From: Amphiura filiformis
Taxonomy: Eukaryota; Echinodermata; Ophiuroidea; Amphilepidida; Amphiuridae
Reading direction: 5' to 3'
Assembly: GCF_039555335.1 (NCBI RefSeq)
Contig: NC_092637.1
Span: 1,302,001-1,366,000 of the forward strand
Length of the DNA: 64,000 nt
Shown here: in pieces, positions 1 through 42,279 of the stretch
How the letters are laid out: every line of letters starts with the position of its first letter
How positions within the stretch are numbered: the stretch's first letter is position 1
The notes under the pieces: generated by a model
The model's database searches: none
Seen by the model: only the letters and a program-made list of their open reading frames with translations
Told to the model about the DNA's origin: nothing
Program-made: the position numbers and the translations under genes

Positions 1-534
1 CTGGCATACACATCGCATTACTGAAGAAGTCAACCGACCTGGTTGACGAAACTGTCTAACCGTGAGTAGAAACTTGGATTTGTTTACATAATTAATGAAC
101 TTTCTGGCATACACTGTCTTCTATACCACATCTTCTAGTACAAAAGTAAATGGAAGGATTTTTTTATATAAAATACACAGTATTGTGTTTTTAATTCACA
201 ATACAATAAAAAAAAAAAAAAAGATTTAGTGTCTATGGTTCTTCCTGTGTGAGATAATTATTGAAAAGGGGATTGTTTAAAGGCACTCATCAGCCTGAAG
301 TCGTAATCTACAAGGCCTTTGAGTGCCCTACAAGTTTCACAATGACTCCACTACCTGTAAATATGTTTAGCATAAATGGCTGAATAACATGAAGCAGTAC
401 TTCAACTTGAAAAGCTCTAGCCAAAGATATATGCAGGGGATATTTTTTTCTTACCGAGTAGAGATAACCTGTTTTATTAACTCGGAACTGACTAATCTAT
501 AACTTCTAACTTACCTTTTTCCATATTTGCCTAG
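1..534. other. Intron sequence, no exon seen
   Basis: A donor-like GTGAGT lies at 62-67, but the sequence before it has a stop in all three frames, so I do not call an exon. The stretch also holds an A-run near 208-223. It ends at the TAG acceptor of the first recognised FN3 exon. It is presumably intron of the phosphatase gene. Confidence 0.5.
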
Positions 535-816
535 TGCCAAACCCAGTACACAATTTCAGAGTGACTGGAACAACGTCCACCTCAGTAGGCCTTGCCTGGG
601 AAGCGCCAGATGGACCAGTAGACCAATATCATCTCTTTGTCTCCAATGTAGGCGGACCACAGCCTAGCCGTCCAATCAGCACCAACCCTAATGGACCTCT
701 TGTATATAATGTGACAGGCTTGAATCCATACAGTGACTATCAGTTCCAGATTGTCAATGTTGTTGATGGTGTGCAGAGCGCTGATTCTACAGTGACGGTA
801 CTAACCGGAGAAGATG
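535..816 (+). CDS. Phosphatase exon: complete FN3 domain
   Basis: A phase 1-1 exon of 94 codons. It shows the FN3 core pattern: PNPVHNFRV, SVGLAWEAP, DQYHLFV, then GLNPYSDYQFQIV and a final VTVLTGE strand. FN3 domains form the extracellular stalk and mediate adhesion or ligand contacts. The acceptor is CCTAG at 530-534 and the donor GTAAGA at 817. A single phase 1-1 exon per FN3 domain is a common module layout. Confidence 0.9.
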
Positions 817-3516
817 GTAAGAAATTATTGACGATTATAACATGATTAAACAAACTGAGGACAGTGGTGCATCATAACATTGTTTGACGGGAATAAGCAA
901 ACTGTGATAAAATGTTTATCTGTTTCGCCATCAAATCATTACCAAAGGAGGAATAGGAAAAGTGATCTCACGTGGAAATTGAACCCAGGACCTCTGGTTT
1001 ACGAGACCAGTACTTTAACCACTTGTCCACTGGAGCTTCATGATTATGCAGACTGGGAATTCAATCTGTAAGTGGTCCCTAAATCCTACCTCCTTCGTGC
1101 AAGACATCTCATACATCACTTTTCCTAATTCATCCTTTAATTAATGGCTCGATTGGCAAAACTGATTAAAATCTCATAATACTTAACCTTTAATAAGCTT
1201 TGATTTGATATAAAGACCATTTTACCTCTCTCAGCGAGGTATATAAGCCTACTCAACAATAACAACAATGAAAGAATAAAACTCATTTCAATGTTTAAGG
1301 GACTTTGGAATGTAAAACTGTGCATAAAAAGTGCATTTCATTCATTTCTAGTCATGTCAAAAAGGAGGACACAAACAGACTTCACCAGAACTTCAACCTG
1401 TAACCACATTCTTTATTTTGACACAAATTCAATAATATGATTTTGACAAGTTTTGTGTCGAATATTGAATTGATCATAGGAACACTCTAAATTGGCATTG
1501 CAAGGTTGATTATGATTTTTTTTAATTGATTATTGACTGACATTTTGTTAAATTTACCATAGTTCCTGGTGTACCAGGAGATCTCTTAGTCAGACAACTG
1601 AGTCCAAATAGTATCCATGTGGAGTGGGAGCCAACGAAGAACCCCAATGGCGAGCTACAAGGATATGTGTTGGTTATATCCAGACGGGATGTGTCCAGTC
1701 GGGTAAGACTGTTATTTATCACAATGTATCTTGTGAAAATATATTTATGTGATGTCTAATTACTAGAAAGTATTTGTTTCTAAAACAGATATAATCTTAA
1801 ATTTAATTAATTTCCCAGTAAATAAAACACAAAACGTTTTGCAGAAATATGTCGGGTTATATAAAAGGTATAAAATGTTTTAATAACATTGAGAAACATT
1901 TTTGAAAACCTGTAGCATTTTTTCATCAAACGTTTTAAAAATGTGTTCGTGTCATATATTCCCGACATTAAAATGTTTTTAAAACGTTTGACTAAAACCA
2001 AAATGTATTTATAACACGTTTATAACATTTGTGTGAAGGCTGACCTGAAAGTTATAGCAGAAATAGAAAAAGGAAAAAGACACAAAATGGGTCCATAGTT
2101 TCCGCTTGTTCACCAAAATTGATTAAGTATAACATTTGAACTTTTATACAAAGTTAAACCAAAATAGAGGATTTGGTTTTGAGTTCCAGTTAGTCCTAAA
2201 TTAAGGATAAGGGTTAGACTGCTTATTTGACAAAACCAGTGACGTAGACCCAAACAGTATTAATAGAGGTTATCCATGTTCTATAAGCTGCATATCCTAT
2301 CAACGACTGCTATACCTTGTTTAGGACATTCTAAAGAAGTACCTGCATGTGCAACCATGACTGTTTCAAAATAGCCCGCCAAGGTCATGCAGGTAACTCC
2401 GAGGTCGAGCATTGAATTAGTTTGAATGAGGAATACTACGGGAACCAGTGCCTTTTGTTAGAAGTCACACATGAGTAAAGTGGATAACCTCTATTGCGAT
2501 ATGTTTGTGTGTCGCTCACGGAGGGCAAATGGTGCACCTCCGGATTATTTTGCCACGCGGTCGGTAAACTTCGATTGCTTATTTGTGATCTACATCTAAG
2601 GCATTGTGCCAATACCTTGAGCTATTTGCACAGATCTTTATAATGCTAATGCGTACAGAAGCAAATTATCATTAAATTTCGGGCTGTTGCTGAAAAAACG
2701 CCGAAGATACACTAATTGGCTTCCATGAATGGCGGATTTATCATAACGTTACACACAGGGCAACTTTGAGTCGGTACGCGTTGAGTACAATCTTTTTTTC
2801 CTTGAATCGGTACTAGATTTATCTATGCATATGAAGAATTGTTTTCAAATAAATTTTGCAGATAAGAGAAAAAATGTTTTTAACACTTCCAATTTATTCT
2901 GCTTCAAAAACAAGGTAAACATTGTAAATGAGGAGATAGAGCTACCACTTGACCAATTGTGGTACCAGTTTGATGACCTTTCAGTCGGTTACGAGTACAC
3001 ATTCACCGTAGTAGTCGTGAATAACATTGGCAGAGGGGCGCCGTTGTGCTATGGACTATTTGTGCAACTTCGTGAAACAGGTAATTATCCGAGTTTGCTT
3101 TGGGGTACGTAATATGTGACCGTCCACCACGAATGAGCCGTAAATGTCCTCAATTGTATTCTGAGATACAGTGTAAAATGGGCATGAAGGTCATATTCAT
3201 AGGTATTTCAATTTGGTGCTACGTGTATCTCATTAAATGAGGTACACGTAGCACCAAATTGAGGTACCTATGAATACGACCTTCATGCCCATTTTACACT
3301 GTAACTCAGACTACAATTGAGGACATTTACGGCTCATTCGTGGTGGACGGTCACATATATCGTCATAATTTCTCTGTCATTTGTGGTAACTGTTGGTACA
3401 TTTGTGCAAAGATTATGGTTAAATAGAACATGATGACATTGATTATAAACCAGATTTCACGGAGCTACTTATCTCAACCACCCTACAAACCAATTCGGGT
3501 GTATGCACTCCCCTAC

Positions 3517-4124: not shown

Positions 4125-7100
4125 ATACATTGTACAGCACCACCACAGACTGAGCATACTCCATACCGAACACCAGATTCTGAAAGGAACGAAGCTTACT
4201 CGATATCAATTACCTTCCGTGAGGATTTCTTCTTGCCCATATTTGGTCGTGTGGCTAACTACTCCGTATTGGTAGCAGAAGAACCTAATCCAAGTAAGAT
4301 ACAAATGAGTATTCATATCTTCATTATACAAACAAGATACTGTTATAAAAAATGTATCCAATCTTTAAAATAAAATTCACCAGAATTATTGCTGATTGCT
4401 GTCAAACTTGACTGAATAAGGAAATGAGCGTGGGGAGGTTCTTTGAGATGTGTTAAGTGTCTTGTCAGTTTTGCACTTACAGTCATTTGCAAAAACAAAC
4501 CAGAAGTTTTATATAATGCTATTTTCTTTTCTATTAGGGGAAGGTCAGATCTCACTAAGTCAGGTTGGTGAACCACCTCAAACCTATCGTAAGAGTTCAA
4601 CCCAACACGTATGGCCAGGTTATCAGGCGTCGCCTCGTGGGTACAACCCATTTGTCAGAGGTATTGCCAAACGTCAAGTTGGCGGCGACCAGGGCCAAGA
4701 TTCAATGGTGGAGTTTATTATCGGTACTGAAGAAGACTGCACTGAGGATCAGTTTTACTACTGCAATGGGTTTCTAAAATCTTACACATATTATCGGTAG
4801 GCTGAGCTTCTTGAAATACTTGTCAGCATTTTTTTAGATAGTCTATTTTTTCCATGGTTAGTATATAATGGTCTGTTGGTTTGGGTGAAGCTGTATGGAG
4901 GCACACTTTGTGTTGTCAATGTCAAGTAAGTGCCTAAGCCAAACTTTTGTCAAACCTGTGTTAGCATGCTGGTCCAAATGGAAAGCACAGGTGTTGGCCC
5001 TGATCTTTTATTCGTATATCCGCCATTTTGGATTTTTGCCATTTTGTGCATTTTGAAACCAAAGACCAATTTTTTCTTCATTTTTTAAAGTCCCCAATTA
5101 ATCTGCATGCAATTACCTATCATGTGAGACATGTGAATGGCTTGGCTTCGATTTAGTTTTCTTCTTCTGACAATTTTTACTTTCCGGGTTTTTAAGCCGA
5201 AGGCGATTTTTTTCTTCAAATTTTGAAGTCGCCAAGTAATCCTTGTACAATTATCGTTCATATAGTACATGCAAATTGGTTGGCTTCGACTTAGTTCTTT
5301 TTTTGAACTTTTTTGAACTAGTGATCGAGCGGTCTATGTACATCAACCCCTGTGAAAGAAGCATAATAATTGTGTAGCAAAATAGTTTTGTTAAATTCAT
5401 GAGATGACAAGGGCTAATTCAAATTGTTATATGAAGAGGAATTTACTTACACTCTATCCCATAGCAATAATGATGGACAATTGTTTTTCAAAAGTGATAT
5501 ATAGCTGGTCAATTTTGCATTACTAATCACCAATGATAATGAGGTTAATGCCCTTAAAGTACTACAAAGTACAATTTTAGGTCATCCGTGATAGCTTTTG
5601 TGTGTAATCCATGACAATAATCTCTTTACATTCCAGTGTGGCTATCCGTGCCTACGGCCTTGATGGCAACTACACAGATACACCATGGTCACAACCTTTG
5701 TCTACAGGTACGTGAATTTTGTAAGGTATTCATTAATAACCGAAACAAAATTGAATGAGTAATTACTCTTTTGCCTTACCTTAATGTCATGTATGAATAA
5801 AACATCCAATCTGATCAGATAAAGCATAATTGGTAACAAGTGACAACGTGCGCCCATACATTACGTAAACAGTGCGCAGTGATACCTCTCTGCTGCAGGT
5901 ATCCATGCCTTCAAAGTCGACACAATTGTACTTGGGAGTAGACTGACTATATATTGCAGCCCATTATGGTACAGAAAGAAATTAAGCAACCCTTACCTCC
6001 AAAAGGCTTATCTGACCCAATGTAAATCATTGCTTCTTTCCTATAGGTGTTAATATTTTGTGTTATTTCCAGATGTCAGTGTTTTGAATTGTGACCATTT
6101 TACAATTTTAATAAGTGTCCACCTCATTTTTTTCCAGGGTTCAATGTGTTATGGTTTGTGTATGCCTTGGTAGCTGTCGTTGGTTTTGTTGTGCTGTGTT
6201 TCTTCATTCTCCTTTGTGTGTGCTGTGGAGGGTAGGTCATGGAAAAAATTATCAAATATACGTAGCTATACAGCAAACGTGCTATTTTCATTATTCTTGG
6301 TAATGACCATGGTGATAACAATTATATATATATGAGGAATATGGCTGCAGTCAAGATAGCTCAATTGGTGTTAGACCGTGGTGCATTCATTTGTGGTGGT
6401 GCACGTATGAATCACCACAGTCACACCCCAGTCAAATACATGAAAAAAATCCAGCTAGCGCGAAAAAACGAACTGCTTATTGTCTCTGTTTACCTGACAC
6501 CCAAGGAATCTGACTGCAGTCAGGATAGCTCAATAGATAATAGACTGTGGAGCATTGGCTTGTGGTGGGGCATATATGAGCCACCACAGTCACAAGATTT
6601 TTCACATGAATAAAATCCAGCTAGCGTGAAATTCCCCTGGAAAAAAAGTGACTTTCAGATAAATATAAGTCATATGATGCTAGGGAACCTTTTGTTTCAT
6701 ATTTATTTATGTTATACATTTAGATATCTTGTAATTTTACAATTAATCCCTTTCACTCCTGACTATTCTTACAATGTCTCTGATTGGCTCAATACACGTT
6801 TAAGTCATCTTTGTGATAGGTATTAGAAACTGATAATTTGGCGAGTAGTGCCCATGGAGTTAAAACAATAGTTATTTTAAATAGACTGAGGCCTGAGAGG
6901 AAAACCACCTCTTTTAACCCATCCCCACGCATGCAGGCTTACCAATTCAAAACAAAACTGAACGTCTATTGTAGTTGTAAGGAAGGGTCCTCCCTTGACC
7001 CTGCAAGTTTCAAAGACTATATCACTAGCCCCAGGTCGTGCCTTCAGATTAATTTCAAACATATTTTTACTCTGATTTTTTCTCCAAGATGTGGCAAACC

Positions 7101-10100
7101 AGGTGAGAACGATTTCTTTGAGGACAGCAAAAAAGACAAGAATATGATGATAATGAAAACAATCGGCAGTAAAACATCGTCTATGGAGTCCAAACACATG
7201 AAAGACCAACCACACTCGCATCGTGCACCTTGGCGTCGCGCACCCACAGAGCGGTCGTATCAAGATCCGGTTCAAAAGCACCATCCTCCTTCCTCTAGAG
7301 CAGAGCCTCATAAACCGATGGCTAAGTCACATGTGTATGCCTCTCCGACGTCAAAGTGGAGCAAGTAAGTTACACCATGAATTTAAGAAACAGATAAACA
7401 GTTGAAAATCACCAAAACATTCCGCAATGAATTTCACAATAATTTTTTATTTGCATGCTCTAAAACATACTTTCTTACCAAAAAACTACAAACTTGCACT
7501 TATTGTTTTGTCATCATAGGCCTATCTATATTGATCAGTTTGCTGAGCACATGAGAATGATGAATGCAAGTAGTGGAATACTCTACGCAGATGAGCTCAA
7601 TGTAAGTTAAAATATAAGAAAATTCTACCTGTACTTTTAACAATCATTTTACGATAGGGATAATAGGGACAATATTTTAAATAGGGACAATATTTTAAAA
7701 ATGTTTTTCAAAATGTTATTGTAAACTATTTTTTTTGTGCAAACATTGTATGCCAAATAGTTTGCCAACACTTACATAACATTATGTGAATATATTGCAG
7801 TAGGTTATCAACAATGTTTGTAATGTTAAGGAAACGTTTTATACCACCTATATACCCTTTATATAACCCGACACTTTTGTGTTTGATGGGATAAAGTTCA
7901 ATTTTTGCTTCAGAGAACATATGGCTGTTCGCATGATGACGCAATCGCATCACGTGGGATACCGTACATATGTTTTGCGAATTGTGGTTTTTTGATGTTT
8001 GGTACGGTTAGGGTCCAATTTACAGTGATGATCATGTTTTGAACACATAGGAAATACCGGGAGGAAATGAAATGACTCTTAAAATATAACATAAAGTATA
8101 ACGTTTATCTATGCCCTTGACATTTATATTCCTTAAAATGAAGACCATAGTGGATAATGTACTCAAGTGCCATTTTGGCGAAAATGAGTTATTGACTGTT
8201 TTGAAGTCTTTGGGGTTTAGCAATTTTTTTCTCAAAATGTTGGCCGATATGACCCCTCAGAAGTAGGGGTCACATGAGGGGTCAACTGGGGTCAAATTTT
8301 CAAATTAGTCTGATCACTATCAAATTAGTGTCAAATTGCTCGTTGGGTCATAAGGATTACAAAAATATATGGTTTGTCATATCTACAACATTTAGTTAAG
8401 GAGTTATAAGCTCAAGGTCAACCAAAGGTCAAACGAGGTCAAATTTTAAGCAACATCCGGTTTACACAAATGATACATCAAATTGTTCCTCTCTATATGG
8501 GCATTCCAAAAATATATACTTCTAACTTATATTGCCATTCAATTTTGAGGAAAATCCATTTGTTTACAGCTGACCACTGATTGTAGTGGAAAAAAGACTC
8601 AAGTGCAAGATATCGATTATTGATTATAGAAAATCAATAAGTAACAATGTATTAATTTATAGCTGTAAAAGAATAATAGTGAATATAAGATTACTCCTGC
8701 AAGTTTTAGTACAAAATAATAAAGTTTGTGATCAGCAGATAAATTTCAAAACTTTAGACCCCATTTTCTCAGAACTAGTATTTTGGCACGTGAGCACTTC
8801 TTCCACTACAGTCTTCAAATTCAGTTTCATTGACCTATATACTAACGCTATGATTCCTCTTTGTCATACATAGAAACTGAATGATATTGGTGCCAACTTG
8901 CCATGCAATTTTCCCGGCAATTTTGCCTCTAATACTCCAGAGAAGAACAGATACAGGAATATCCTGCCATGTAATATATACTAACACTATGATTCCTCTT
9001 TGTCATACATAGAAACTGAATGATATTGGTGCCAACTTGCCATGCAATGTTGCATCCAATGCTTTAGAGAAGAACCGATACAGAAACATTCTGCCATGTA
9101 AGTGTGATAATGTAAATCAATGTAGTACTGATTAATATTGTAGCGTAAGTTAAATTTCCATCTTGTTCAGATTGGGTGCAACAAGCTTCACGCCCTGCGT
9201 CTTTGCGTCTTCACTGTTCTTATTGTATTTCTATAACTGATACCATTACGTATTTCTTATCTTGCATTTTCATTTGTTATAACTTTGTTGTTAATTGATA
9301 TGAAAACAACTTGAACTTCAACTTGAAGGCTGAGTGTGAGTGTAAAAACACCTTATGGGTACACACCTGCACCTTAAAATGCTCACCCATTGACTGACTC
9401 AATTGAATGGGTCCTTAAACATCTTCTTCTTGACGTGGGAGCTTCTAAGTACTTCAAAACATTTTCCATAAGTTTAAAATCAAACAAAGACAGCTAGAGA
9501 AACCTAACAGAGTCCCACAAACGTGTCCAAACGTTTCCTTAAATGAGTCTTTGACAAAATAAACTTGTATACTCCCGTAGCTCATAATCCTTGTTTTTCC
9601 TCTCACCAGACGATACCAATCGTGTTTGTTTACATGATCCACCGGATGGTTTGGACTACATTAATGCCAGCTATGTAGATGTGAGTACACGCAAAATTGA
9701 GTTCAAATGATAATATCAGTGCTATTGACAGCTGTTCATTAACGTGACAAATGTTTTACGCCATATTTTGAAACAATGTCCGCAATTTGCTCAACCATGT
9801 CTCTATCGCCTAATATAACATGAGATGGCATTATCTTAAGTGCCGAGTTGTTCCACATAAAAAATTCCATATTACATTAGGCGATAGACACGTCTGGGTT
9901 CCAAAACAATACCTTTATTCTCATTCTTAAACAGATTACCTGTAAAATCATGCACACTTTATGTCCATTTTTATCAAGTTTAACCAGTGACTCCCGTGTA
10001 CGAAATTGATGAATCCACTGAGTCCTTCATATTATACAGATGCAACATATTGCACAGCCCATGTCATTTTATGGGCAATGCAAAAGATACACCCAGCCGC

Positions 10101-13100
10101 GCTGTTCAATACCTTGCTGTGCTCTATTGTCTTAATATATATATTTGTTTTGCATTTTCAGGGTCACCATGGCAAAAATGAGTACATAGTAACCCAGGGT
10201 CCATTGCCTAACACTATTGAAGACTTCTGGGAGATGGTGTGGGAAAATGAAATTCCTACCATCATAATGAACACCAATCTAGTGGAGAATGGAAGGGTAA
10301 GAAAACCTATAAGACATTGCTCTTTTTGACTCAGTACTTGACTCCAGAGTAGACTTGTAGGTGGCTCCTGAAGTGACTAATAACTTGACTTGTGACTTAT
10401 ATTAACTTCTGACTTGATTCATAACTTGACTTGTGACTTCGTTCATAGCACTCTACCAATATATACTGCAAATATAATTAATAAAGGTGTGTTTAGACTA
10501 GAATCTTAAAATTGATGTCATAGCACCCTCAACAGCCACTATCTCCATAGTCTTACGTGTAAAACTCTTTTAGCCACAAACATAAAAACCTACCTGTGTT
10601 TCATCAATCATTATTACCAATTATTTGTTTAAATGTGTATATTATGTTTTTGTTAACTTTCAGGTAAAATGTGAGAAATACTGGCCAGACAGTGGTGAAG
10701 CCCAGTATGGCCGTATGACAGTCAAACTATTAAGTGAATCAGACACTCAAGAATGGACGGTTAGGACATTTGATGTCTCTAAGGTAACATAACACTTCAA
10801 TAGAAATGTTCCTTCTTTTTTTTTTTTTAAATGCAAAGAGATCTTTTTTCCATTGCTTGATTTCAGTTAATTCTGTTCACTTTCAGCCTTAATTCAAGCT
10901 GCTAAGTTTAATGGTTAAAAAACAAGCCTGACAAACCTTGTTAATTATTGTTTTCTGTTGTATTTTCTGATGAAGTTGCATTTGTTAATATTATGTATGG
11001 CAAAATGTATATTTTTAAAACAACGAACCAAACCAGAAATTGGAGGGCAATACAAACGTTTTTCAGCTTAACACACATTTGACATAAAAGGTGCAAACAT
11101 GGTACTTATTTATTCCTTCACCACATGATTAGGCTTGTGTTCTTCCCACACTTAATTGCACTAATGAGTAAAGATATCAACATTTTGCATATAGCAATTT
11201 TGAGAAATGTAACTGGACATGCACATTACATCAATACACATTTACAGTTTTTTTTAATAAGTTAATTTAGTTTCTTTAGTTTAGTAGCAAACTTGCACAC
11301 TCTCAGCACATTTGCCGCAAAAAAAAATACAATAATATCACAAAGTTAAACAGAATAGACAATTTTGCTTCACAATCTGGTGTCTTTTACCGCCTTTGCA
11401 TTCAAAGATCACTTGCAGACTTACTGTCAACAAGCTGTTATGGCAGGGTGGAAGTGGTCATGTGCGTATTTATAAATACGTATTTATAAATATAGTCGAA
11501 GCACACTGATATTGCATTAATAAATGTGAAACAATTATGTTGAATTAGTTTTTGTAGTCATGACAATTGCAACTTACATCAACAAATCGTATTGTTGCTG
11601 CAAAAAATCAAATGCTTACTTGCATGATGATAAATGAGTGGCCCAGTATAAAACCGGCCCATGGCACATTTTTGAAAAAAATAGAGGGCGCTGTTGAAAA
11701 TGTCAAAGGTCACCAAAGGTCATCCATACAAACATAACACACCATGAATGTAACTCGGGAATGTTGTCAATTTAATCTTTTAAGCATCAAATTTCTTATG
11801 TATTTTATTGAACATTCGTACATTTACAGTGCCGATTTCTCCCAATGACGAAAAATGTGCCATGGGCCATTCAAATAATTGAATGGCTCAGTGTAAAAAT
11901 GGCCCATTCCAATTTTGATAAAATTAGACTTTTAGGGTTAGTAGGTTTTTGGGGAAACATAAGATAGCGGGGCAGTTTTTACACTGGGACACTCAATTGT
12001 GAAAAAGCAACTTCCCTCGTTTGTTTCTTGTCCTCAGGACGGAGAATCCAAAGGACACGTAGGTGTCTTCCAATATCGCAATTGGCCGGACCAAGGTGCC
12101 CCACAAGATCCACGCTCTGTGCTGAAATTCGTGCAGACAGTGCGCGCCCAGCATCCTCGTAGATCAGGACCAGGAATAGTTGTGCTCTGCAGGTGAGATT
12201 ATGAGATATATACCTTAAAATATCCAAACTTTTGGTCAAATTTTGATCTTTTTTGACCGAACAAAAAAAAATCAAAAATTTGAGAAAACCAAATCTGGTG
12301 TTGTATCTTTAGCACACAAATATGCAATTTCCAATTAGGATATTTAGGATATTAAAGTTGTTAGGGTGGACAGAAAAAAAATTGGCATGGAAAATGAAAA
12401 TGCAGGAATCTGCCGTACTGATTGCATTCCTTGCATCATTTCCTTTTTGAAAATGCATACTTCTATATACTCATCATCATTACTTTTAAAGATACAATAC
12501 AAAATTTCCCAATTTGAGGGACCTTGCGTGCCCCCTTAAACAAAAACTTAAACTTTCGGTCATCCCTCCATGTAATATGCACGGAATATTACATATTCTC
12601 AAGTACCTTGTGGCAATATATACAGTTAAAGTTAACTGTATATACAGGTAAATATAACTGTGATTATACGTATTCTAAACATATCTTTATATAATATAAT
12701 ATTATATATTATAAGGCAGTATGGCAAGGGGTATTGTGGCATTCGGGGCACGCTCGTTGAATATGTTTATATACGTATTATTCCTATTCCAAACATTTCT
12801 GTATGTAATATAATATTATATATTATAAGGCAATATGGCAAAGGGTATTGTGGCATTCGGGGCACGCTCGTTGAATATGTTTATAAACGTATTGTGCCTA
12901 TTCCAAATATTTCTTTATATAATATAATATTATATATTATAAGGCAATATGGCAAAGGGTATTGTGGCATTCGGGGCACGCTCGTTGAATATGTTTATAA
13001 ACGTATTGTGCCTATTCCAAATATTTCTTTATATAATATAATATTATATATTATAAGGCAATATGGCAAAGGGTATTGTGGCATTCGGGGCACGCTCGTT

Positions 13101-16100
13101 GAATATGTTATAAACGTATTGCGCCTATTCCAAATATTTCTTTATATAATATAATATTATATATTATAAGGCACAATTTTGCAAAGTGTGTTGTGGCATT
13201 CTAATGTTCTTTGTGGAATATCCCGTTAGCAAGAGATTAGGGCGTGTCGAAAGTCATGCAGGGTGGTTGGTTGTCCATATTACCTAACCTGTGGGATCCT
13301 TCTGCCCATAAGTTCTCTTTAGGGTTCGTATCCGGGCTCAAAGCCGGTATGTCCAGGAGTTTTACTTTCTTATTTTCAAGGAATTCACCCACGCGTCGGG
13401 CTCTGTGGGCCGGGGCGTTGTTATCTTGGATCACGAAATTGTTCCCGAAGTCTCTTCTTGCAATCAGAAACTGTATCAAGAACATGCAGGTATTGATCCT
13501 GGATTATGTGTCCTTCTTCTGATTTCGACCGACTGTGAAATACTGCCCATACTGTTATTCCATCACTACATCCTTGGACTATATGAAGCATACAATCCTC
13601 AAGCAGGGTTTGACCAACCTGTCTTCGTACCTTGAATCGGCCATCATGTCTGTAGAAGCAGAACCGGGCCTCGTCACTGAAGATCTCATTACGCCAGTGG
13701 CCTACTGTCAAATCCCCGTGTCTCTGAGACCAACACAAGCGTGCATTCCGAAGTATCGGCTTTCTTATTGGTCGTCTTGCGCAAAATCATGCACTAACCA
13801 GTCTATCGTTCACTAGTTTCCCTTGACCCTTTTTTAAGCTGCAAGTTAGTGGGCGGGTTAGTGTAGTGGTCTTCTCACTCGCTTCTCACCGCTGTGGCCG
13901 GGGTTCAATTCCCCGCGGCGCCACATGTGAGTTTGGTTGCCGATCCATGATCGTCCTCGCAGGTTTTTCTCCGGGTGCTCCGGTTTTCCTCCTGTATCTA
14001 AAATCTGACTTCTTTCCATATCCCTGTCCCGTCATATCCGGATGGCATCCCTTGAATTTAGTAGCCTCTGAGCACTATTGGGATTAGCCTGGCTTCGGCC
14101 GAATGTTATAAATAAATAAAATAATAAATAAAACACCCAGAGTCCAACATTGTGGCTCAAGAACTGTCCGTCCGTCTGCCTGTAACACATTTTACGCACA
14201 GCGTAATTTAAATAATCGACTTGTTATTATCATTATTTTATTCCATTATGTATCCTCAAGTGCTGGAGTAGGCAGATCAGGCACCTTTGTAGCTATTGAT
14301 ATCTTACTGCAACAGCTAGCTGCCGGTCACAGTGAGACACTTGACATCTTTGGTGTATGCGCCAAGTTAAGGAGACAACGACGATACATGGTCCAAAGCA
14401 AGGCAAGTACTTCCACGTTGCATGTTCCTCTGTGTCTGTTGTATAGAGGTTTTCCTTTGTCAACAGTCAGTAACATGAACATAGATCAATTTCACAAAGA
14501 GTTAAGTTACGATTCATAAGACCTAAATCCATTGTAAGTCCCACGCCCGTTGTAACTCCTCCATATAGGATTTACATGTAACGATGGGGTTGGACTTGGA
14601 TGGTATGTTAATACGGTGCGTTGTAAAAGGTAGTGAAATCCATTTCTAATCAGAGAGGAGCAGGATTAGATTGGGGTAGAAAATATAAAGAAGGGCTTCT
14701 TGGCGACTGTCATTCCTTCGTCAAGTACAAAAATCTCCCTTCTCAGATTTGTCCTAACCATCCATTCTGTGCACGCGTCCTTCTCAAAGAGAGATGAAAC
14801 TTTTCCGGAAACGATGTAAAAAAAAGTAAAACAAAAAAATCGGGAAATTGAACTGATTTTTTAATTTTATTTTTTTTAAAGCAACCGAGGTATTTTCACA
14901 TAAAAAGAGCAAACAATTATTATATAAAGTAATACCCCTGTTACCCTTGCGATAGCTTGTTCTCCATGGGCCAGGTCGAATGCTCAATGTTTTGCATGTT
15001 TATTCTTACAGGAGCAGTACAAGTTTGTTCATCGAGCCGTGCAGGTGTACATGCAACAACAGGCCAATTATGAGTTGATGATCGACGGTGGTAGCAACTG
15101 GGCTATGGGCTCATCTGTTAGCGGAGCAGGGCCTATAGCATGTAAGTGTACATAAACATGATAAATGTAGGCGTAAAAACCCGAAGGGGTAGGGAAGTTC
15201 CGCAGAGAATCTGAAATTGGACCCATCACACATCTGGATTTATTCATATAGTGTTACACAAGCTCAACATTTTATGGCAAAACATAATCCTTGATAATAA
15301 AAATGTCCAACTCCTGACCAGTATAAAAGAACATTGCAATATGTAAGGACAATGTTACCTGCCCAAATCCTAGTATAAACAATAATAGTAATTACTGGCA
15401 TTTAGTTACTGCACAAACCTGGACAATTAGCCTGGCCAACGATGTTAGACAGATTTTTTGCCAAATGTAATACAATTTTACATTTTTTTCATTGTTTTTG
15501 TCCTCAAATTTGGGTGGCAGTTATGTGAAAGTGGATTGATTAAACAAATGCCCATTTTTATACCAAAATTGAGCTAGTAAACATGGTAAATCAGTCATTG
15601 TTTTGACCCCTGTGGAGGTCAAATCGTGACCTTTGGCCTTTTTGCTTATAACGCAAAAAGGGATGTCATAGATAGGTAAAACTATACTTTTTCTGGATCG
15701 CCATGGTATGAGGAATAATTTGGGGAACTTTCAACAGTATTTGGACAGTTTGAATTTTGACCACTGTGTGAACTTTGAATCACCATATCTCAGAATACTC
15801 AATGCTGATAGAGGTCCAGTAAACTTATTTTTGAAGTTGGTGGTCTTGAGAAGCAATATCCATAAATATCAAAAACAAAAGTATGGACACCAAAACAAGC
15901 TTCAGTGGCAAAATTGCGTTTGGCAGCCGGACTAAGACCATTGCTAAAGCACATGACAAGATGACTATCAATGTGTACAAGCATCACATAAGAAGGAGGC
16001 TTCAAGCTTTTGGGTACTCCTATTTGTCAACCTGTTTTTGTTAAGTCCATCTGTGTGTGATCATCTGTGATGACACTCTTGGTTCTGTTTTTGTTTTTGC

Positions 16101-16145
16101 TTTACAGATAGCAATGCAAGCATGTCAATCGATGGGGATCTCTAG
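535..16145 (+). CDS. Receptor-type tyrosine-protein phosphatase, R3-like (5' partial), 17 coding positions
   Basis: This gene encodes a single-pass membrane phosphatase that would remove phosphate from tyrosines of signalling proteins at the plasma membrane. Joining exons at GT-AG sites (one GC-AG) keeps one frame throughout: 2402 nt, or 799 codons plus stop with the shorter alternative exon, 803 with the longer. Approximate residues from the window edge: FN3 1-94, FN3 95-196, membrane-proximal domain 197-358, transmembrane helix 360-388, basic cytoplasmic linker to about 490, single PTP domain about 500-765, short tail. PTP landmarks are KNRYRNILPYD, YINASY, YIVTQGPLPNT, DFWEMVWE, WPDQGAP, CSAGVGRSG and EQYKF. 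One PTP domain behind FN3 domains, a juxtamembrane motif resembling PIHIDxF and a C-terminal YxN fit the R3 group (PTPRB/J/O/H-like), by recognition rather than search. The His usually preceding the catalytic Cys is Leu. Signal peptide and N-terminal FN3 domains lie upstream of the window. Confidence 0.9.
958..1036 (-). pseudogene. Degenerate tRNA-Thr(CGT)-like sequence (SINE head or tRNA pseudogene)
   Basis: Read on the minus strand, this has an anticodon arm CTGGT-CTCGTAA-ACCAG with anticodon CGT, an A-box-like AAGTGGTTAAAG and a B-box-like GGGTTCAATTT. The acceptor stem does not pair and the T stem is mismatched, so it is not a working tRNA gene. It lies in an intron and may be the head of a tRNA-derived retroposon. 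Confidence 0.5.
1563..1702 (+). CDS. Phosphatase exon: first half of second FN3 domain
   Basis: Starts in phase 1 and ends in phase 0. It encodes VPGDLLVRQLSPNSIHVEWE followed by an NPNGELQGYVLVIS strand, which are the A to C strands of an FN3 domain. The donor is GTAAGA. The rest of the domain lies in the exon 1.2 kb downstream. Confidence 0.85.
1815..2034. repeat. Copy of the AAACGTTTT / GGGTTATATAAA MITE family
   Basis: Contains CACAAAACGTTTT, GTCGGGTTATATAAAAGGTA and repeated AACGTTTTAAAA blocks that also occur at 7670-7890 and in the full-length element near 30.2-30.8 kb. It lies in an intron. The terminal CCCAGCAAACAC end is not preserved here. Confidence 0.6.
2262..2495. mobile_element. 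Small MITE with 15-bp perfect terminal inverted repeats
   Basis: AATAGAGGTTATCCA at 2262-2276 is the exact reverse complement of TGGATAACCTCTATT at 2481-2495. The 234-bp interior has no coding potential. No clear target-site duplication is visible. It lies in the intron that splits the second FN3 domain. Confidence 0.5.
2915..3080 (+). CDS. Phosphatase exon: second half of second FN3 domain
   Basis: Starts in phase 0 after CAAG at 2911-2914 and ends in phase 1 at GTAATT. It encodes VNIVNEEIELPL, the GYEYTFTVVVVNNIGRGAP strand pair typical of FN3 F and G strands, and a final ETG. A stronger-looking acceptor at 2860-2861 would give the wrong phase and hits a stop, so I chose 2915. The acceptor choice is the least certain part. 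Confidence 0.75.
3112..3358. mobile_element. Near-perfect foldback MITE, about 247 bp
   Basis: The left half, starting ATATGTGACCGTCCACCACG, folds back on the right half, which ends in the reverse complement. The arms are about 120 bp with few mismatches and the centre is AT-rich around 3230-3240. There is no coding potential. It sits just after the FN3 exon. Confidence 0.8.
3519..3925 (-). mobile_element. Probable 3' end of a CR1/L2-like LINE (5'-truncated)
   Basis: On the minus strand the block ends with TTTGGAAATAAAGATTG followed by a GATT tandem tail (AATC repeats at about 3519-3567 on the plus strand). Upstream is a G/T-rich segment like the 3' untranslated regions of CR1/L2-type LINEs. 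No reverse-transcriptase coding remains. It also contains an exon-like segment at 3839-3872 discussed among the findings. Confidence 0.5.
3950..4123 (+). repeat. (CTTT)n microsatellite forming the polypyrimidine tract of a splice acceptor
   Basis: About 170 nt of CTTT repeats with two slips (TTTTC near 3971 and 4041). It ends 14 nt before the acceptor TTGTACAG at 4130-4137. The open frames of poly Phe-Leu-Ser and, on the other strand, Lys-Glu-Arg are artefacts of the repeat. Confidence 0.95.
4138..4293 (+). CDS. Phosphatase exon: start of membrane-proximal extracellular domain
   Basis: A phase 1-1 exon. It encodes a proline-rich linker and then AYSISITF, an FFLPIFGRVANYSVLVAEE strand and a final NPS. 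The pattern of an I/S-rich strand followed by G-x-V-x-x-Y-x-V-x-V matches the membrane-proximal region of R3-type receptor phosphatases. A second in-frame acceptor exists at 4174-4175 (ACACCAG), which would drop the linker. Confidence 0.8.
4538..4796 (+). CDS. Phosphatase exon: membrane-proximal domain, middle part
   Basis: Starts in phase 1 after TATTAG and ends in phase 2 at GTAGGC. It encodes an extracellular stretch with PPQTYRKSS, YNPFVRGIAKR and a strand SMVEFIIGTEEDC, then YYCNGFLKSYTYYR, the start of the last extracellular beta strand. The three cysteines could form disulphides. The dibasic AKRQ motif is noted, but I do not infer cleavage. Confidence 0.85.
5055..5310 (+). repeat. Two diverged direct repeats of about 135 bp
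   Basis: The segment around 5060-5165 and the one around 5195-5300 share the order CAA/CGATTTTTTCTTC, AAGTC, CCAA, TGCATGCAATTA-like text and GGCTTCGAYTTAGTT. They diverge by roughly a quarter. They lie in the intron before the YGLDG exon. No coding content is seen in this intron. Confidence 0.6.
5637..5707 (+). CDS. Phosphatase exon: last extracellular strand
   Basis: Starts in phase 2 and ends in phase 1. It encodes VAIRAYGLDGNYTDTPWSQP, a typical final strand plus W-S before the membrane. NYT is a potential N-glycosylation site. The acceptor is TTCCAG and the donor GTACGT. Confidence 0.88.
6138..6231 (+). CDS. Phosphatase exon: transmembrane helix
   Basis: Starts in phase 1 and ends in phase 2. 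It encodes a strongly hydrophobic run of about 27 residues (FNVLWFVYALVAVVGFVVLC and onward) that ends in a Cys-rich LCVCCGG, a likely palmitoylation-type membrane exit. It separates the extracellular part from the cytoplasmic phosphatase. Confidence 0.9.
6345..6640 (+). repeat. Two tandem tRNA-like SINE units
   Basis: Two direct repeats of about 130-165 bp each begin CTGCAGTCARGATAGCTCAA, an A-box-like sequence (TAGCTCAAT), and each ends AAAATCCAGCTAGCG. The B box is degenerate. They sit in the intron between the transmembrane and juxtamembrane exons and look like a duplicated tRNA-derived retroposon. Confidence 0.5.
7089..7364 (+). CDS. Phosphatase exon: cytoplasmic juxtamembrane segment
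   Basis: A phase 2-2 exon of 92 codons between the membrane and the PTP domain. It begins CGKPGENDFFEDSKKDK and is then rich in Lys, Arg, His, Pro and Ser (HSHRAPWRRAPTERSY, KHHPPSSRAEPHK). I recognise no domain. The many Ser, Thr and Tyr residues could be regulatory phosphosites, which is inference only. The donor is GTAAGT. Confidence 0.82.
7520..7601 (+). CDS. Phosphatase exon: PIYIDQF motif leading into PTP domain
   Basis: Starts in phase 2 and ends in phase 0. It encodes KPIYIDQFAEHMRMMN, then SSGILYADELN. It corresponds to the conserved PVxLxxFxxH...F..E(Y/F)..L helix just before the catalytic domain of receptor phosphatases. It is followed by the pair of alternative exons. Confidence 0.9.
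7670..7890. repeat. Second copy of the AAACGTTTT / TATATAACCCGACA MITE family
   Basis: Contains AATATTTTAAAAATGTTTTT, GTTATTGTAAACTATTTTTT, AAACGTTTTATACC and TATATAACCCGACA, ending TTTTGTGTTTGATGGGA. This is close to the CGTTTTTGTGTTTGCTGGGA end of the full-length element near 30.8 kb. It lies in the intron before the alternative exons. Confidence 0.65.
8270..8420 (+). repeat. Dispersed repeat related to the foldback element at 34.6-35.4 kb
   Basis: The text GGGTCAAATTTTCA, CAAATTGCTCGT, GGTCATAAGGATTACAAAAA and TATGGTTTGT matches the arm of the foldback element near 34.74-34.84 kb. It is a diverged partial copy in a phosphatase intron. Confidence 0.5.
8874..8970 (+). CDS. Alternative phosphatase exon A (32 codons, phase 0-1)
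   Basis: Encodes KLNDIGANLPCNFPGNFASN and then TPEKNRYRNILP, the N-terminal part of the PTP domain with the KNRY substrate-recognition loop. The acceptor CATACATAG is shared with exon B and a TACTAAC branch-point match lies at 8840-8846. The donor GTAATA is weaker than that of exon B. It is four codons longer than exon B. Including both exons would shift the frame, because 97 is not a multiple of 3. Confidence 0.85.
9013..9097 (+). CDS. Alternative phosphatase exon B (28 codons, phase 0-1)
   Basis: Encodes KLNDIGANLPCNVASNALEK and then NRYRNILP. The first 36 nt are identical to exon A and the rest is diverged at both silent and amino-acid-changing sites. It has a strong donor (GTAAGT). The intron between A and B is only 42 nt, with TACTAAC at 8979-8985, so splicing A directly to B should be sterically blocked. 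B or A, not both, joins to the next exon in frame. Confidence 0.88.
9610..9680 (+). CDS. Phosphatase exon: DTNRVCL...YINASYVD
   Basis: Starts in phase 1 and ends in phase 0. It encodes YDTNRVCLHDPPDGLDYINA and SYVD, the conserved DxxRVxL...DYINA(S/N)Y strand of tyrosine phosphatases. The donor is GTGAGT. Confidence 0.93.
10162..10296 (+). CDS. Phosphatase exon: YIVTQGPLPNT and DFWEMVWE
   Basis: A phase 0-0 exon of 45 codons. It encodes GHHGKNEYIVTQGPLPNTIE, DFWEMVWENE, IPTIIMNTNLVENGR. These are PTP-domain core motifs (TQGPLP and the FWxMVWE helix). The donor is GTAAGA. Confidence 0.95.
10664..10783 (+). CDS. Phosphatase exon: KCEKYWPD...GRMTVKL
   Basis: A phase 0-0 exon of 40 codons. It encodes VKCEKYWPDSGEAQYGRMTV, then KLLSESDTQEWTVRTFDVSK. 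The CxxYWP motif and the following beta strands precede the WPD loop in tyrosine phosphatases. Confidence 0.94.
10784..12037. other. Phosphatase intron with MITE remains
   Basis: No exon is seen here. The part at 11634-11999 holds inverted copies of GTGGCCCAGTATAAAA and GGCCCATGGCACATTTTT. These resemble the element at 29775-30003, and the block is partly nested or rearranged. The remainder is AT-rich intron. Confidence 0.5.
12038..12192 (+). CDS. Phosphatase exon: WPD loop and catalytic cysteine
   Basis: Starts in phase 0 and ends in phase 2. It encodes GHVGVFQYRNWPDQGAP (WPD loop, general acid Asp at 12089-12091), a helix DPRSVLKFVQTVRAQH and the strand GPGIVVLC. The catalytic Cys codon is 12188-12190. 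The preceding residue is Leu (CTC, 12185-12187), where nearly all tyrosine phosphatases have His. The following Ser codon is split by the intron. Confidence 0.93.
12660..13210 (+). repeat. 114-bp tandem repeat, about 4.9 copies
   Basis: GTATTGTGGCATTCGGGGCA recurs at 12731, 12845, 12959 and 13073, with a diverged copy at 13187, which gives a constant period of 114 bp. Each unit contains an AT palindrome, AATATAATATTATATATTATA. As 114 is a multiple of three, a long open frame appears, but I consider it an artefact. It lies inside the intron that interrupts the catalytic loop. Confidence 0.9.
13225..13830 (-). mobile_element. Dead Tc1-like transposon fragment
   Basis: Minus-strand frames read RLVSA-stop-FCARRPIRK, then FSDEARFCFYRHDGR, VWAVFHSRSK, and, after a frameshift near 13430, VIQDNNAPAHRARRVGEFL and LSPDTNPKENLW. 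These are the DDE-type catalytic regions of Tc1/mariner transposases: the first Asp in FSDEARF, the second in QDNNAPAH and the acidic NPKENLW. Stops, a frameshift and missing ends show it is inactive. It is intronic. Confidence 0.9.
13850..14131 (+). mobile_element. tRNA-derived SINE
   Basis: Starts GGGCGGGTTAGTGTAGTGGT (A-box-like) followed by GGGGTTCAATTCCCC (B box) about 35 nt later. It then has a non-tRNA body (CTCCGGGTGCTCCGGTTTTC) and a tail of AAATA repeats to about 14131. It lies in the same intron as the Tc1 fragment and the 114-bp array, in sense orientation to the gene. Confidence 0.85.
14261..14402 (+). CDS. Phosphatase exon: SAGVGRSGTF phosphate-binding loop
   Basis: Starts in phase 2 and ends in phase 0. 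It encodes SAGVGRSGTFVAIDILLQQL, then a helix and LRRQRRYMVQSK. The Arg of the phosphate-binding loop (AGA) is intact. The donor is GCAAGT, a GC-AG intron. An alternative GT at 14407 would change the phase, so GC is preferred. Confidence 0.93.
14403..15011. other. GC-AG phosphatase intron, nothing else seen
   Basis: Begins GCAAGTACTT and ends TTCTTACAG. There are short poly-A and poly-T runs near 14820-14880. No repeat family or RNA gene is recognised. Confidence 0.6.
15012..15141 (+). CDS. Phosphatase exon: Q loop and C-terminal end of PTP domain
   Basis: Starts in phase 0 and ends in phase 1. It encodes EQYKFVHRAVQVYMQQQANY, then ELMIDGGSNWAMGSSVSGAG and PIA. The EQYKFVH segment is the Q loop and last helix of the PTP domain, with the Q-loop Gln kept. 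The rest is a Gly/Ser-rich tail. The last codon is split and becomes Tyr. Confidence 0.93.
15142..16107. other. Last phosphatase intron
   Basis: AT-rich intron from GTAAGT to TTTACAG. The block at 15590-16015 contains GAGGTCAAATCGTGACCTTT-like text seen in other dispersed repeats of the window. No exon is recognised. Confidence 0.5.
16108..16145 (+). CDS. Phosphatase terminal exon: YSNASMSIDGDL and stop
   Basis: The last 12 residues follow the split Tyr codon, then TAG at 16143-16145. The tail reads PIAYSNASMSIDGDL. Tyr-Ser-Asn is a YxN motif of the kind that binds Grb2-type SH2 domains when phosphorylated, and R3 receptor phosphatases are known for a C-terminal Tyr site. The functional reading is inference. 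Confidence 0.9.
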
Positions 16146-17310
16146 ACACCTTTATGGGAATCTATACACATCTTGAGTGATTCGCCCTTCATAAAATGAA
16201 CTAACAACCAGTGTTCTTCATAAAAAAAAGTTTGCATTAAATATACCACATCTTATGGCAGCATTGTATGTAAACACAACGAAAGAGGACAGAAACTTCT
16301 AAATTAAATGTGAAAGTTACAAACATTGGAACTGAACTGATGAATAGACTTTATCGCAGTCAAACAAAATTCTACCTCTCTGGCTGCAAGATAAATCTAG
16401 TATTGCTGAAGGGTAATTGCTTGTTGCCATAAATGTGTGGACATTTATTTAATTATATAATATTATGTTAGTATTAGTAGGTGAATGTTTAGTATATTTT
16501 TTCTAAAGAAGTTTGTACAGTTTTATTTTTATAAAATTAAATAAAGGGCGGGTCCCGGACAGAACCTGCTTCCAGTCAAAAGCTATCTCATTAGGCGATG
16601 AAAATAATATATCCGAAAAAGACATAAAACTATGGAACAATTTAGAGTCTCATTTTTGTAAGGAATTTCTATCTGGAAATCCCTCGTGTAATTCTGGCTA
16701 GAAATTCCCGAAATATCGAATCATGCTGTAAACATCTAGACATGTTCAACACCATCTGATCTCTTCACTATACCGTGTACATGGTATAACAATATTGATT
16801 AATCGAAACAACTTAGTGAGAGATCAGTGTTTCATGTCTTATTGGCTTTTAATGCGGTGTTCTGAATGTAAGGGTGCTAACTAGGAATTAAACAAAATAT
16901 TAATTCCGTACAGCTTAAAAAACACATAGCAAAGACTTGCAATTAATGGAGTTCACACAATTGTCTTTCAGACTTGAAAGCCTGTATACTTCATATGTAC
17001 CCGCACTTGGTACTATATTTTATGATAATGAATAAATTGAATGTGAAAGTTACAAACATTGGAACTGAACTGATGAATAGTACTTATCGCAGTCAAACAA
17101 AATTCTACCTCTCTGGCTGCAAGATAAATCTAGTATTGCTGAAGGGTAATTGCTTGCTGCCATAAATGTGTGGACATTTACTTAATTATATAATATTATG
17201 TTAGTATTAGTAGGTGAATGTTTAGTATATTTTTTCTATATAAGTTTGTACAGTTTTATTTTTATAAAATAAAAATGTATAAATAATACCATCGTCTTTG
17301 AATAAAGCAG
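16146..17310 (+). repeat. Phosphatase 3' untranslated region with a 240-bp direct duplication
   Basis: About 16302-16545 and 17038-17273 are near-identical, sharing AATGTGAAAGTTACAAACAT, CTCTCTGGCTGCAAGATAAA and GTTTGTACAGTTTTATTTTT. AATAAA signals occur at 16540, 17268 and 17301, so polyadenylation could use either copy. The 490 bp between them looks like an inserted element of unknown family; it contains a short open stretch with KLWNNLESHF that faintly recalls LINE C-terminal ends. Confidence 0.75.
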
Positions 17311-36330: not shown

Positions 36331-36949
36331 TAAAGGTGGGTGACCCACCCCTGAAGTTGACTGTCGGCTGTGCATTTCTCTTTCCATTTACAGTTTTTAT
36401 TATTAGTTTTTTTTTCAAAAACTCATTATTAGTAGGACCATAATCCAGAAATAATTATCATTCATATTTAATGTGAAAATTTAAATCTGCATTATGCAAT
36501 TAAGTAAATTCATACAATATTTAAAGATATCCGCACCCCCACCCTCATCCCCGGCCCTTTCTAAGGAAGTAGAAATAATAAAGCAAAGGATTTTAGTTAG
36601 TCCAAGTACTCAGTACGCTAATTGACGACACTAGCCAATCAACAACATTTTAACTTGACATGCATTATGTAAAGGGGCTCCTATAACTTACATAGAAAAT
36701 AGTCCCATCTTTTGTTGTATTTGAGCCAATCCCTATTCATTTGCATGGGTTTTTGAACCCATATTCTGATCAAGATTACTCAATAATGTGCAAACTACGT
36801 ATGTGGGATAGGGTGACTTGGATTTGAATATATATATATGCTACCTTTTGATAAATTTGAGAGTGAAAGATACAAATTCTGGAGTGAAAGATACATGTCT
36901 TCATCCCATAATTTACGAGGTTGATGACTACTTCATACTCCCTCGAATA
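36331..36949. other. EGF/TSP3 intron, copied at 41.7-42.3 kb
   Basis: From about 36405 this sequence (CTCATTATTAGTAGGACCAT, CCGCACCCCCACCCTCATCC) reappears nearly unchanged from 41720. There is no gene content. It marks one arm of the segmental duplication. Confidence 0.6.
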
Positions 36950-38160
36950 GTGCATGACGAGATACAGGTGAAAGGTATATATAAACATTACCGTATCTCG
37001 ATTTGAAATTACTTCGTATTCTAGGTCGGTAGACACGAGTAGGGTTTAATCATCACCTAGCGAAGTCCGTTTCAGAGGTTTGAGCTTTCAAAACTCTATC
37101 GAGACCATATTCAGAGCAACTAAAGAAACGAGATGACGCGCCTTATACACCCGCGGAACTGTCGAAGTGATTGACAGGACGTGTCATAAAGGGAACTTTC
37201 CGTATGGAGAACAAACAGGTGTTAATTAACTTGGTCAGGGGTCCTTTTAAATAACCTATGCCATTCAGAAGGAATTTACACTCCTTTGTTCCTATTGAAA
37301 TTGTTTGGAGTCGAGTGGATATCAGACCACTTCGTATTCATGTTTAAAATATTGTTTTGACACAAATGTTCAGCGACTGCTGATTTTGGTGTGGTGCCAG
37401 AATCAGTGTCTCAGCTTCAAAGTTTTGGCAGTTTCACAAATGTACACTTTTTCAAAAGATCCACAAGTTATGGAATAGGTTGTTCCTGGCTGGAGATCCT
37501 TGGAAATAGGGTCCCTAAAGTGTACACGTTCCTTGTCGTCTTGCAGTATACACCTTCGTCTTGCAGTATACACGAAGGTGTTTCTTCTGAAGTACTTTGC
37601 GTATAACTTAGAGGTCCTAGCTACATATGGCAAGCTGATATATAGATGCATTAGGCGTAGGTTCATCAGTCGTGGGCGGTTGGGATGTAAAGTCATGAAA
37701 AAACTTAGAAGCGTACTTGTTTAGCTTCAAAGCTTATTGGATGTGAGTCTTTTCATGTTGTTAATCCTCAATGGTTGACGAAACATTGTCAGCTCGGGTT
37801 GGGGGATTCTGGATGATAGGAGTAAACGTTAAGGTACTGTTCAGTGTGGATTTTCAACCTGTAGTAGCAAGCAAAAGATCAGACTTTCTCTTAACGAGGA
37901 TGTCAAGAAAAGCAAGCTGGTCATTGGTCACCTCCTCATAAGTGAACTGGATAACTTCCTTACGAAGATTGTTGAGGTAGGTAAGCAAAGACTCTACGTG
38001 ATCGCATTTGATAATACAGAATGTGTAGTTCACATAAGGTTTCCAAATTCGAGGTCGATTAGGGATGGTCAAAAGAGATTCTTGCTCATAGAACTCCATG
38101 AACAGGTCGGCCACTGGTGGGGAAAGGAAGATCCCACCGTTAGGCCATTAGTGTGAAGGT
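36950..38160 (-). mobile_element. Penelope-like element fragment, copy 1 (dead)
   Basis: The minus strand carries, in order, reverse-transcriptase text PPVADLFMEFYEQESL, IWKPYVNYTFCII, LNNLRKEVIQFTYEE and LAFLDILVKRKSD, then the later SLPYVARTSKLYAKYF and the GIY-YIG-like YSITCGSFEKVYICETAKT. This is the layout of Penelope-like elements with a C-terminal GIY-YIG endonuclease. The catalytic YVDD is YVNY, and there are frameshifts. Copied intact at 42.3-43.5 kb. Confidence 0.8.
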
Positions 38161-38595
38161 ATATGTCTTATTCAAACATGAAATAAGCTTTGTTCAAACA
38201 AAACTCCAACATACGTCTATTTTCAGAAAAATAGACATTATGTCCTGTTGAGTAGTGCATATCATCTCTTTTCTTCAGTTCCTCTAAAGATGGCACATTA
38301 TTGAGTTCCGAAAGCTCGATCCTCAGAAATGGAATTCTCTATGCCATTATTAAACCCTATTCATTACCTTATCACAAATCTCCATTGTTCACCTTCATTA
38401 TTTTCGGTTTCCGTTGTTCATTCCTTTTGTTATTTATTGTTTTAGCTGGTTAGATACGCCTTCATTAAATTTTACGATTATACAGAAACATTAAACCCTT
38501 GATGAAAAATTACTGCACACACTTTCTTTGTGTGTTTAAAACATACCATACTTTTCAATATGATTGTAAAGCAATATTTAATTTTTAATTTTTAG

Positions 38596-41715: not shown

Positions 41716-42279
41716 CCATTATTAGTTTTTTTTCCAAAAACTCATTATTAGTAGGACCATAATCCAGAAATAATTATAATTCATATTTAATGTGAAAATC
41801 TAAATCTGCATTATGCAATTAAGTAAATTCATACAATATTAAAAGATATCCGCACCCCCACCCTCATCCCCGGCCCTTTCTAAGGAAATAGAAATAATAA
41901 AGCAAAGGATTTTAGTTAGTCCAAGTACTCAGCACGCTAATTGGCGACACTAGCCAATCAACAACATTTTAACTGGACATGCATTATGTAAAAGGCTCTA
42001 ATAACTTACATAGAAAATAGTGCCTCTTTTGTTGTATTTGAGCCAATCCCTATTCATTTGCATGGGTTTTTGAACCCAGCTTCTGATCAAGATTACTCAT
42101 TAATGTGCAAACTACGTATGTGGGATAGGGTGGATTTGGATTTGAATATATATATGCTACCTTTTGATAAATTTGAGGTCCTGTCCAGAGGGGTCGGGGA
42201 CCACTGGAGTGAAAGATACATGTCCTCATCCCATAATCTAGAGGTTGATGACTACTTCATATACTCCCTCGAATAGTGC

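Follow-up and report, generated by a model that had tools for sequence, protein, structure and literature searches.

A tandem-duplicated, putatively mutually exclusive exon pair in the catalytic domain of an apparently R3-like receptor tyrosine phosphatase gene of Amphiura filiformis

Mutually exclusive exons (MXEs) that arise by tandem duplication are well known, and so is the enforcement of their exclusive use by steric hindrance and by incompatibility of reading frames. For example, exclusion in the human OGDH gene (exons 4a and 4b) is enforced by branch points lying 25-41 nt from the donor, as described in the available portion of PMC7969005, which also cites tropomyosin and actinin as further steric cases. 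In a survey of human MXEs, Hatje et al. 2017 took a distance of less than 50 bp from donor to branch point as a sign of potential steric interference, which applies to 57 (9%) of 629 clusters (PMC5740500, portion available). The same portion names a receptor tyrosine phosphatase gene, human PTPRS, among the MXE genes and does not give the position of the exons within PTPRS. A small swap inside the catalytic domain of a signalling enzyme is described in MAP kinases (Mapk14, and apparently Mapk9 and Mapk10; PMC1431701, portion available). Finally, the Dscam exon arrays grew by staggered homologous recombination, which takes place among neighbouring homologous exons and engages the upstream intron, as cited in the available portion of PMC5224494.

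Here we describe a pair of exons from the genome of the ophiuroid Amphiura filiformis, found in a contiguous stretch of 64,000 nt (hereafter the window), which shares features with each of these systems. In common with OGDH it has adjacent homologous exons, a short intron and a branch point near the upstream donor (see PMC7969005, portion available, for the OGDH arrangement), but it belongs to another gene family, its branch-site match lies nearer to the donor (14 nt, against the 25-41 nt of OGDH) and, unlike in OGDH, near-identical acceptor regions show that the spacing was set by the breakpoints of the duplication. It resembles the MAP kinase case in affecting a small part of a catalytic domain, although the enzyme is a phosphatase and not a kinase, and it resembles Dscam in the putative recombination between neighbouring homologous exons with involvement of the upstream intron, although there are two exons rather than an array and no established docking/selector system. 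Among the matches listed in a search of the open-access literature on MXEs and phosphatases, none deals with this exon pair, judged by title and the start of the abstract. Two features stand out as unusual, namely the 14-nt spacing and the position of the breakpoints, which would explain both this spacing and the weaker donor of the first copy.

The plus strand of the window carries the 3' portion of a gene for an animal receptor tyrosine phosphatase, which reaches from the left edge to roughly 16.1 kb. Its intracellular part was modelled as e1, e2, either exon 3A or exon 3B (listed further below), and then e4 to e10:

510 to 842, plus strand: open frame with an FN3 domain (Pfam fn3, E 9e-13), presumed to belong to the same gene
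7089 to 7364, plus strand: exon e1 of the modelled gene, juxtamembrane by reading
7520 to 7601, plus strand: exon e2, the 5' partner of 3A or 3B
9610 to 9680, plus strand: exon e4, the 3' partner of 3A or 3B (DTNRVCLHDPPDGLDYINASYVD)
10162 to 10296, plus strand: exon e5 of the modelled gene
10664 to 10783, plus strand: exon e6 of the modelled gene
12038 to 12192, plus strand: exon e7, with the WPD loop (WPDQGAP)
14261 to 14402, plus strand: exon e8, with the remainder of the PTP signature (SAGVGRSG)
15012 to 15141, plus strand: exon e9 (EQYKFVHRA...)
16108 to 16145, plus strand: exon e10, with the C terminus and the stop

Downstream of the frame at 510-842, further FN3-like exons and then a membrane-spanning exon at about 6139-6233 were recognised by reading only. 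The joined protein, in its A form and its B form alike, matches Pfam Y_phosphatase with an E-value of 3.3e-84. The FN3 domain upstream (on the same strand and presumed to be of the same gene) and the single PTP domain correspond to the layout of R3 phosphatases, and because the best single-domain PDB matches are PTPRB (256 bits) and Drosophila Ptp10D (235 bits), two-domain chains being higher in total score, we regard the enzyme as R3-like (PTPRB/PTPRJ/Ptp10D type) by its sequence. A self-BLAST of the window found no PTP exons other than the modelled ones at E <0.3, and no second phosphatase gene was found in the window.

KNRY, WPD, HCX5R and the Q-loop are classical motifs of PTPs. The modelled protein has KNRY, WPD, CX5R and a Q-loop stretch, with Leu replacing the His that precedes the Cys. 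The signature, VLCSAGVGRSG, is split over 12182-12192 and 14261-14282, and the His of HCX5R that is here Leu is found in all ten domain alignments (five chains) of the PDB matches. Such an unusual Leu before the catalytic Cys may alter catalysis. The intron 3' of e8 begins at 14403 with a GC donor (AAG/GCAAGT), which fits a GC-AG intron.

Broken minus-strand frames in a phosphatase intron (13240-13786), which we take to resemble a Tc1/mariner-type transposase remnant, lie beside a 114-nt tandem repeat (12671-13201); the minus-strand frame 13424-13786 has no Pfam match. A palindrome of 247 nt (95%) at 3112-3358, by reading also within a phosphatase intron, is perhaps a small inverted-repeat element, and a 242-nt stretch 3' of the phosphatase stop occurs twice (16300-16541 and 17033-17274, 96% identity). 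Farther downstream there are thrombospondin type 3 repeat arrays at 38589-39377 and 43902-46615, the latter made up of 7.7 copies of a 324-nt unit (97%), a block (36399-39238) repeated at 41718-44550 with 88%, and 54-nt satellite arrays at 51343-51912 and 54516-57339. The window contains no tRNA genes and no Rfam families at the gathering threshold.

Between e2 and e4 the gene contains two direct, head-to-tail copies of a short segment, in each of which an exon is preceded by TACTAAC, a run rich in pyrimidines and ATAG, and followed by GTAA:

8836 to 8974, plus strand: duplication unit 1, 139 nt, with branch-site match, pyrimidine tract, acceptor, exon 3A and the first 4 nt of the 3A donor
8975 to 9101, plus strand: duplication unit 2, 127 nt, with the matching elements and exon 3B, directly abutting unit 1
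8840 to 8846, plus strand: TACTAAC branch-site match for 3A, its A at -29
8874 to 8970, plus strand: exon 3A, 97 nt (KLNDIGANLPCNFPGNFASNTPEKNRYRNILP + 1 nt)
8910 to 8921, plus strand: TTTCCCGGCAAT, 12 nt of exon 3A that exon 3B lacks, located where the identical half gives way to the diverged half
8971 to 8976, plus strand: donor of exon 3A, GTAATA (CAT/GTAATA), without G at +5
8971 to 9012, plus strand: intron between the copies, 42 nt (other modelled introns 155-2068 nt)
8979 to 8985, plus strand: TACTAAC branch-site match for 3B, its A at -29 and the 14th nt from the 3A donor
9013 to 9097, plus strand: exon 3B, 85 nt (KLNDIGANLPCNVASNALEKNRYRNILP + 1 nt)
9098 to 9103, plus strand: donor of exon 3B, GTAAGT (CAT/GTAAGT), a full donor

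The similarity of the units is not due to chance (self-BLAST E 5e-40 and 1e-37 in two runs), and no third copy was found by self-BLAST in the window, where the other matches are 13-29 nt long with E 0.18 or worse. The original prediction of two adjacent exons of 97 and 85 nt is borne out at 8874-8970 and 9013-9097: both have an AG acceptor, a GT donor, phase 0 entry and phase 1 exit, all intact and fitting e2 and e4. So are the near-identical 5' parts that it described, the first 36 exon nucleotides being identical, with one difference in the 38 nt upstream.

Since the duplicated unit starts 4 nt 5' of TACTAAC and ends within the donor, the branch site of the second copy sits 14 nt into the intron between the exons. 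Branch sites are understood here as sequence matches to TACTAAC, a motif that occurs within 70 nt of only two of the 11 acceptors examined, those of 3A and 3B. A 42-nt intron with a branch point about 14 nt from the donor had likewise been claimed, and the TACTAAC adenine is indeed its 14th nucleotide, well below the limit of about 50 nt between donor and branch point that delimits the steric subclass. Because of this position we infer that joining of A to B would be sterically excluded, the distance being too short for the spliceosome, and e2 would be spliced to A or to B and either of these to e4. Incompatibility of frames, which PMC5740500 (portion available) likewise uses as a criterion alongside steric distance, backs this inference. 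With A alone or B alone the modelled frame stays open until the stop with which e10 ends, while inclusion of neither exon shifts the frame and joining of A to B creates a stop at the junction codon, which agrees with the earlier claim that use of both exons breaks the frame; transcripts joined in this way would stop there and presumably be degraded. That cells join A to B on purpose, so that an early-stop transcript lowers the level of the phosphatase, would account for the immediate stop, and reads joining both exons occur in 83 of 377 frame-breaking human MXE clusters (PMC5740500, portion available), but the branch-site match 14 nt into a 42-nt intron argues against such joining here, and we consider it highly improbable. 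The claimed tandem exon duplication in the PTP domain with frame and steric incompatibility thus has the support of the sequence, and we regard it as likely that the two exons are a tandem-duplicated, mutually exclusive pair, and that the receptor tyrosine phosphatase whose PTP domain they help to encode is R3-like.

The two units did not diverge evenly. Aligned without the 12-nt gap they show 11 differences over 127 positions, one in the first 74 and ten in the last 53, and the 12-nt indel lies at the boundary of the conserved and the diverged parts. The contrast is significant if the alignment is split at the start of the gap (1/69 vs 10/58; Fisher P 0.0025) and also with a maximum chi-square permutation in which the split is not preset (P 0.019; 20000 permutations, position alone). 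It extends to near-neutral sites, with differences at 1 of about 36 vs 6 of about 12 (Fisher P 0.0005), where near-neutral denotes, in rounded numbers, the intron minus 7 branch-site and 3 acceptor positions, plus synonymous sites; for coding synonymous sites alone the comparison of the 5' and the 3' part gives P 0.042. Over the 16 codons that align in the 3' half there are 6.5 synonymous changes over 12.1 sites and 3.5 nonsynonymous changes over 35.9 sites, and at least 6 synonymous of 10 changes would have a probability of 0.02 under neutrality. In the ten codons of EKNRYRNILP there are 4 synonymous and 0 nonsynonymous changes (P 0.003 if neutral). These are tests on tiny samples, and the one on EKNRYRNILP does not tell which copy was constrained or until when; both copies nevertheless look selected. 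The pattern suggests an old age for the 3' halves, which selection would have maintained, and a more recent origin for the identity of the 5' parts.

Synonymous divergence between alleles, even in very polymorphic marine animals, is generally well below about 0.5 per site. This bears on the notion that the pair is an artefact of assembly, in which two alleles of a single exon were placed in tandem: such an error would look like a short and clean direct repeat with very little spacer between the exons, as seen here, but the 3' halves differ by about 0.5 synonymous changes per site before correction (6.5/12.1), and an artefact is accordingly very improbable.

To explain the uneven divergence, gene conversion had been proposed, and the pattern, near-neutral sites included, supports it, but conversion from a paralogue would leave the same pattern. 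In the history that we prefer, the duplication would be old and the first 74 nt would later have been homogenised by gene conversion between the copies. Alternatively, the duplication may be recent and conversion by, or recombination with, a phosphatase paralogue may have supplied one of the 3' halves, a history that likewise predicts a near-identical intron and first 36 exon nucleotides followed by a diverged remainder. Such a donor would need an exon of the same phase in the paralogue, none of which was found in the window, and we regard this alternative, which is compatible with mutually exclusive use, as somewhat unlikely.

Under the preferred history of an old duplication with later conversion, the 12-nt indel may be a trace left when the copies exchanged sequence out of register at AAT codons, which are repeated at intervals of 12 nt. 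Exon A contains the blocks TTGCCATGCAAT, TTTCCCGGCAAT and TTTGCCTCTAAT in succession, and the indel can be placed equally well in nine ways, with starts from 8905 to 8913. Had the copies exchanged sequence with an offset of one such block, the homogenised half would have been fused to the older one, with four additional codons as the result. Slippage of a 12-mer within exon A was considered as the whole cause; a recent slip is not favoured, the neighbouring blocks being alike at 9/12 and 8/12 positions, while an old slip would also do as the source of the length difference.

The copies differ furthermore in their splice signals. The full donor of B and its more open predicted acceptor are the reasons for which we read exon B as probably the default form, whereas A, less surely, would be a weaker or regulated form, given its donor and an acceptor that is predicted to pair with a single-copy sequence just 5' of unit 1:

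8819 to 8828, plus strand: ATTCAGTTTC, a candidate structural element, weak

ATTCAGTTTC is complementary over 10 nt to GAAACTGAAT, which spans both acceptors. When the nearest 100 nt were dinucleotide-shuffled, 8/1000 shuffles equalled this 10-bp match, as did 13/300 for the whole intron; with G-U pairs allowed, these numbers rise to 59/1000 and 192/300, and the shuffle test was made after the fact, the helix having first been spotted in a fold of the whole region. The predicted inner helix pairs with acceptor A at a probability of 0.98-1.0 in all six folded windows, and with acceptor B at <=0.02 in the three that reach the acceptor of B. Mean unpaired probability is 0.19 at acceptor A and 0.69 at acceptor B, the most open of 11 acceptors, yet the closure of A is equalled or exceeded by 9% of 200 random AG sites and by the acceptor of e10 (0.13), and there is nothing unusual in how the region folds as a whole (z -1.31; 18/200 shuffles as stable). 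Predicted folding at the acceptors may therefore impose a slight bias towards B and no more, and a docking/selector model would be only a weak addition.

The same differences could mean that only exon 3B is used and that 3A is a skipped or noise-level copy, kept intact by partial conversion or because it has not yet decayed. In favour of this, the donor of A lacks the G at +5 that all but one of the 9 other modelled donors have, and its acceptor is the more closed in prediction. However, the frame and both splice sites of A are intact and its EKNRYRNILP codons differ from those of B only synonymously, and we hold sole use of 3B to be unlikely.

Returning to alternating use of A and B, its consequences would be confined to a small part of the enzyme. 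The two proteins differ only before KNRY, where A has FPGNFASNTPE (11 residues) and B has VASNALE (7 residues), while KNRY (the pTyr-recognition motif) and the residues after it are identical. The exons had been described as coding for the segment before KNRY, which is true of the variable part, but KNRY itself lies inside both exons. Similarly, the four extra codons attributed to exon A are extra in relation to B but not to the normal length. Counted by eye in alignments, the stretch between G-x-x (or A-N) and KNR is 15 residues long in A and 11 in B; PTPRS D1, LAR D1 and Ptp10D each have 13 and LAR D2 has 6, so that A and B fall on either side of the three RPTP D1 domains counted. An interpretation of B as the ancestral 'canonical' length was dropped, the three D1 domains counted being intermediate. 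In alignment scores A is slightly above B against Ptp10D (62.8 vs 59.4 bits) and also against PTPRS D1 and LAR D1, and B is above A against PTPRS D2 and LAR D2.

The search for relatives covered collections of viruses, prokaryotes and plasmids, and no animal relative turned up there: viral contigs yielded no relative and plasmids no match, and among prokaryote genome contigs there was one bacterial match only. The latter, on a Chlamydiae MAG contig (L001, 738-1517), is a PTP-like protein, 28% identical to the PTP domain in the best segment.

Taken jointly, these features can be read as the outcome of a single duplication that gave exclusion at once, followed by an out-of-register conversion, with the element at 8819-8828 possibly setting the choice. 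We offer this combined account tentatively and consider it rather doubtful in its entirety. The left breakpoint of the duplication would lie just 5' of the branch site and the right one inside the donor, and the duplication would thereby have weakened the donor of the first copy (GTAAGT to GTAATA), made the frames incompatible and created an intron whose branch point is only 14 nt from its start. Because such breakpoints would give exclusion at once, no regulator would have been needed first. Conversion at an AAT codon of the 12-nt spacing would then have erased the divergence of the shared half and at the same time written the four-codon difference, and the single-copy element at 8819-8828 could mask either acceptor.

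As to function, a change beside the active site had been predicted. The loop before KNRY does vary, but the effect is likely to be modest, KNRY being the same in both forms. The KNRY loop shapes the pocket (PMC7320164 and PMC2638020, portions available), and the PTPRU version of the pTyr-loop region is sufficient to inactivate PTPRK (PMC7320164, portion available). Both enzymes encoded by the gene would keep the motif of the pTyr pocket; what would distinguish them is how long the preceding loop is and which residues compose it. Because KNRY is retained in both, a tuning of contacts with substrates or partners seems more likely than a switch of activity. If this is true, splicing allows a receptor tyrosine phosphatase to vary a loop that adjoins its substrate pocket, and the two forms would be worth assaying because swaps of the pTyr-loop region between PTPRU and PTPRK can change activity (PMC7320164, portion available). 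With breakpoints at the branch site and in the donor, exclusion would come with the duplication itself, and the layout would be a clean record of mutually exclusive splicing arising in one duplication step.
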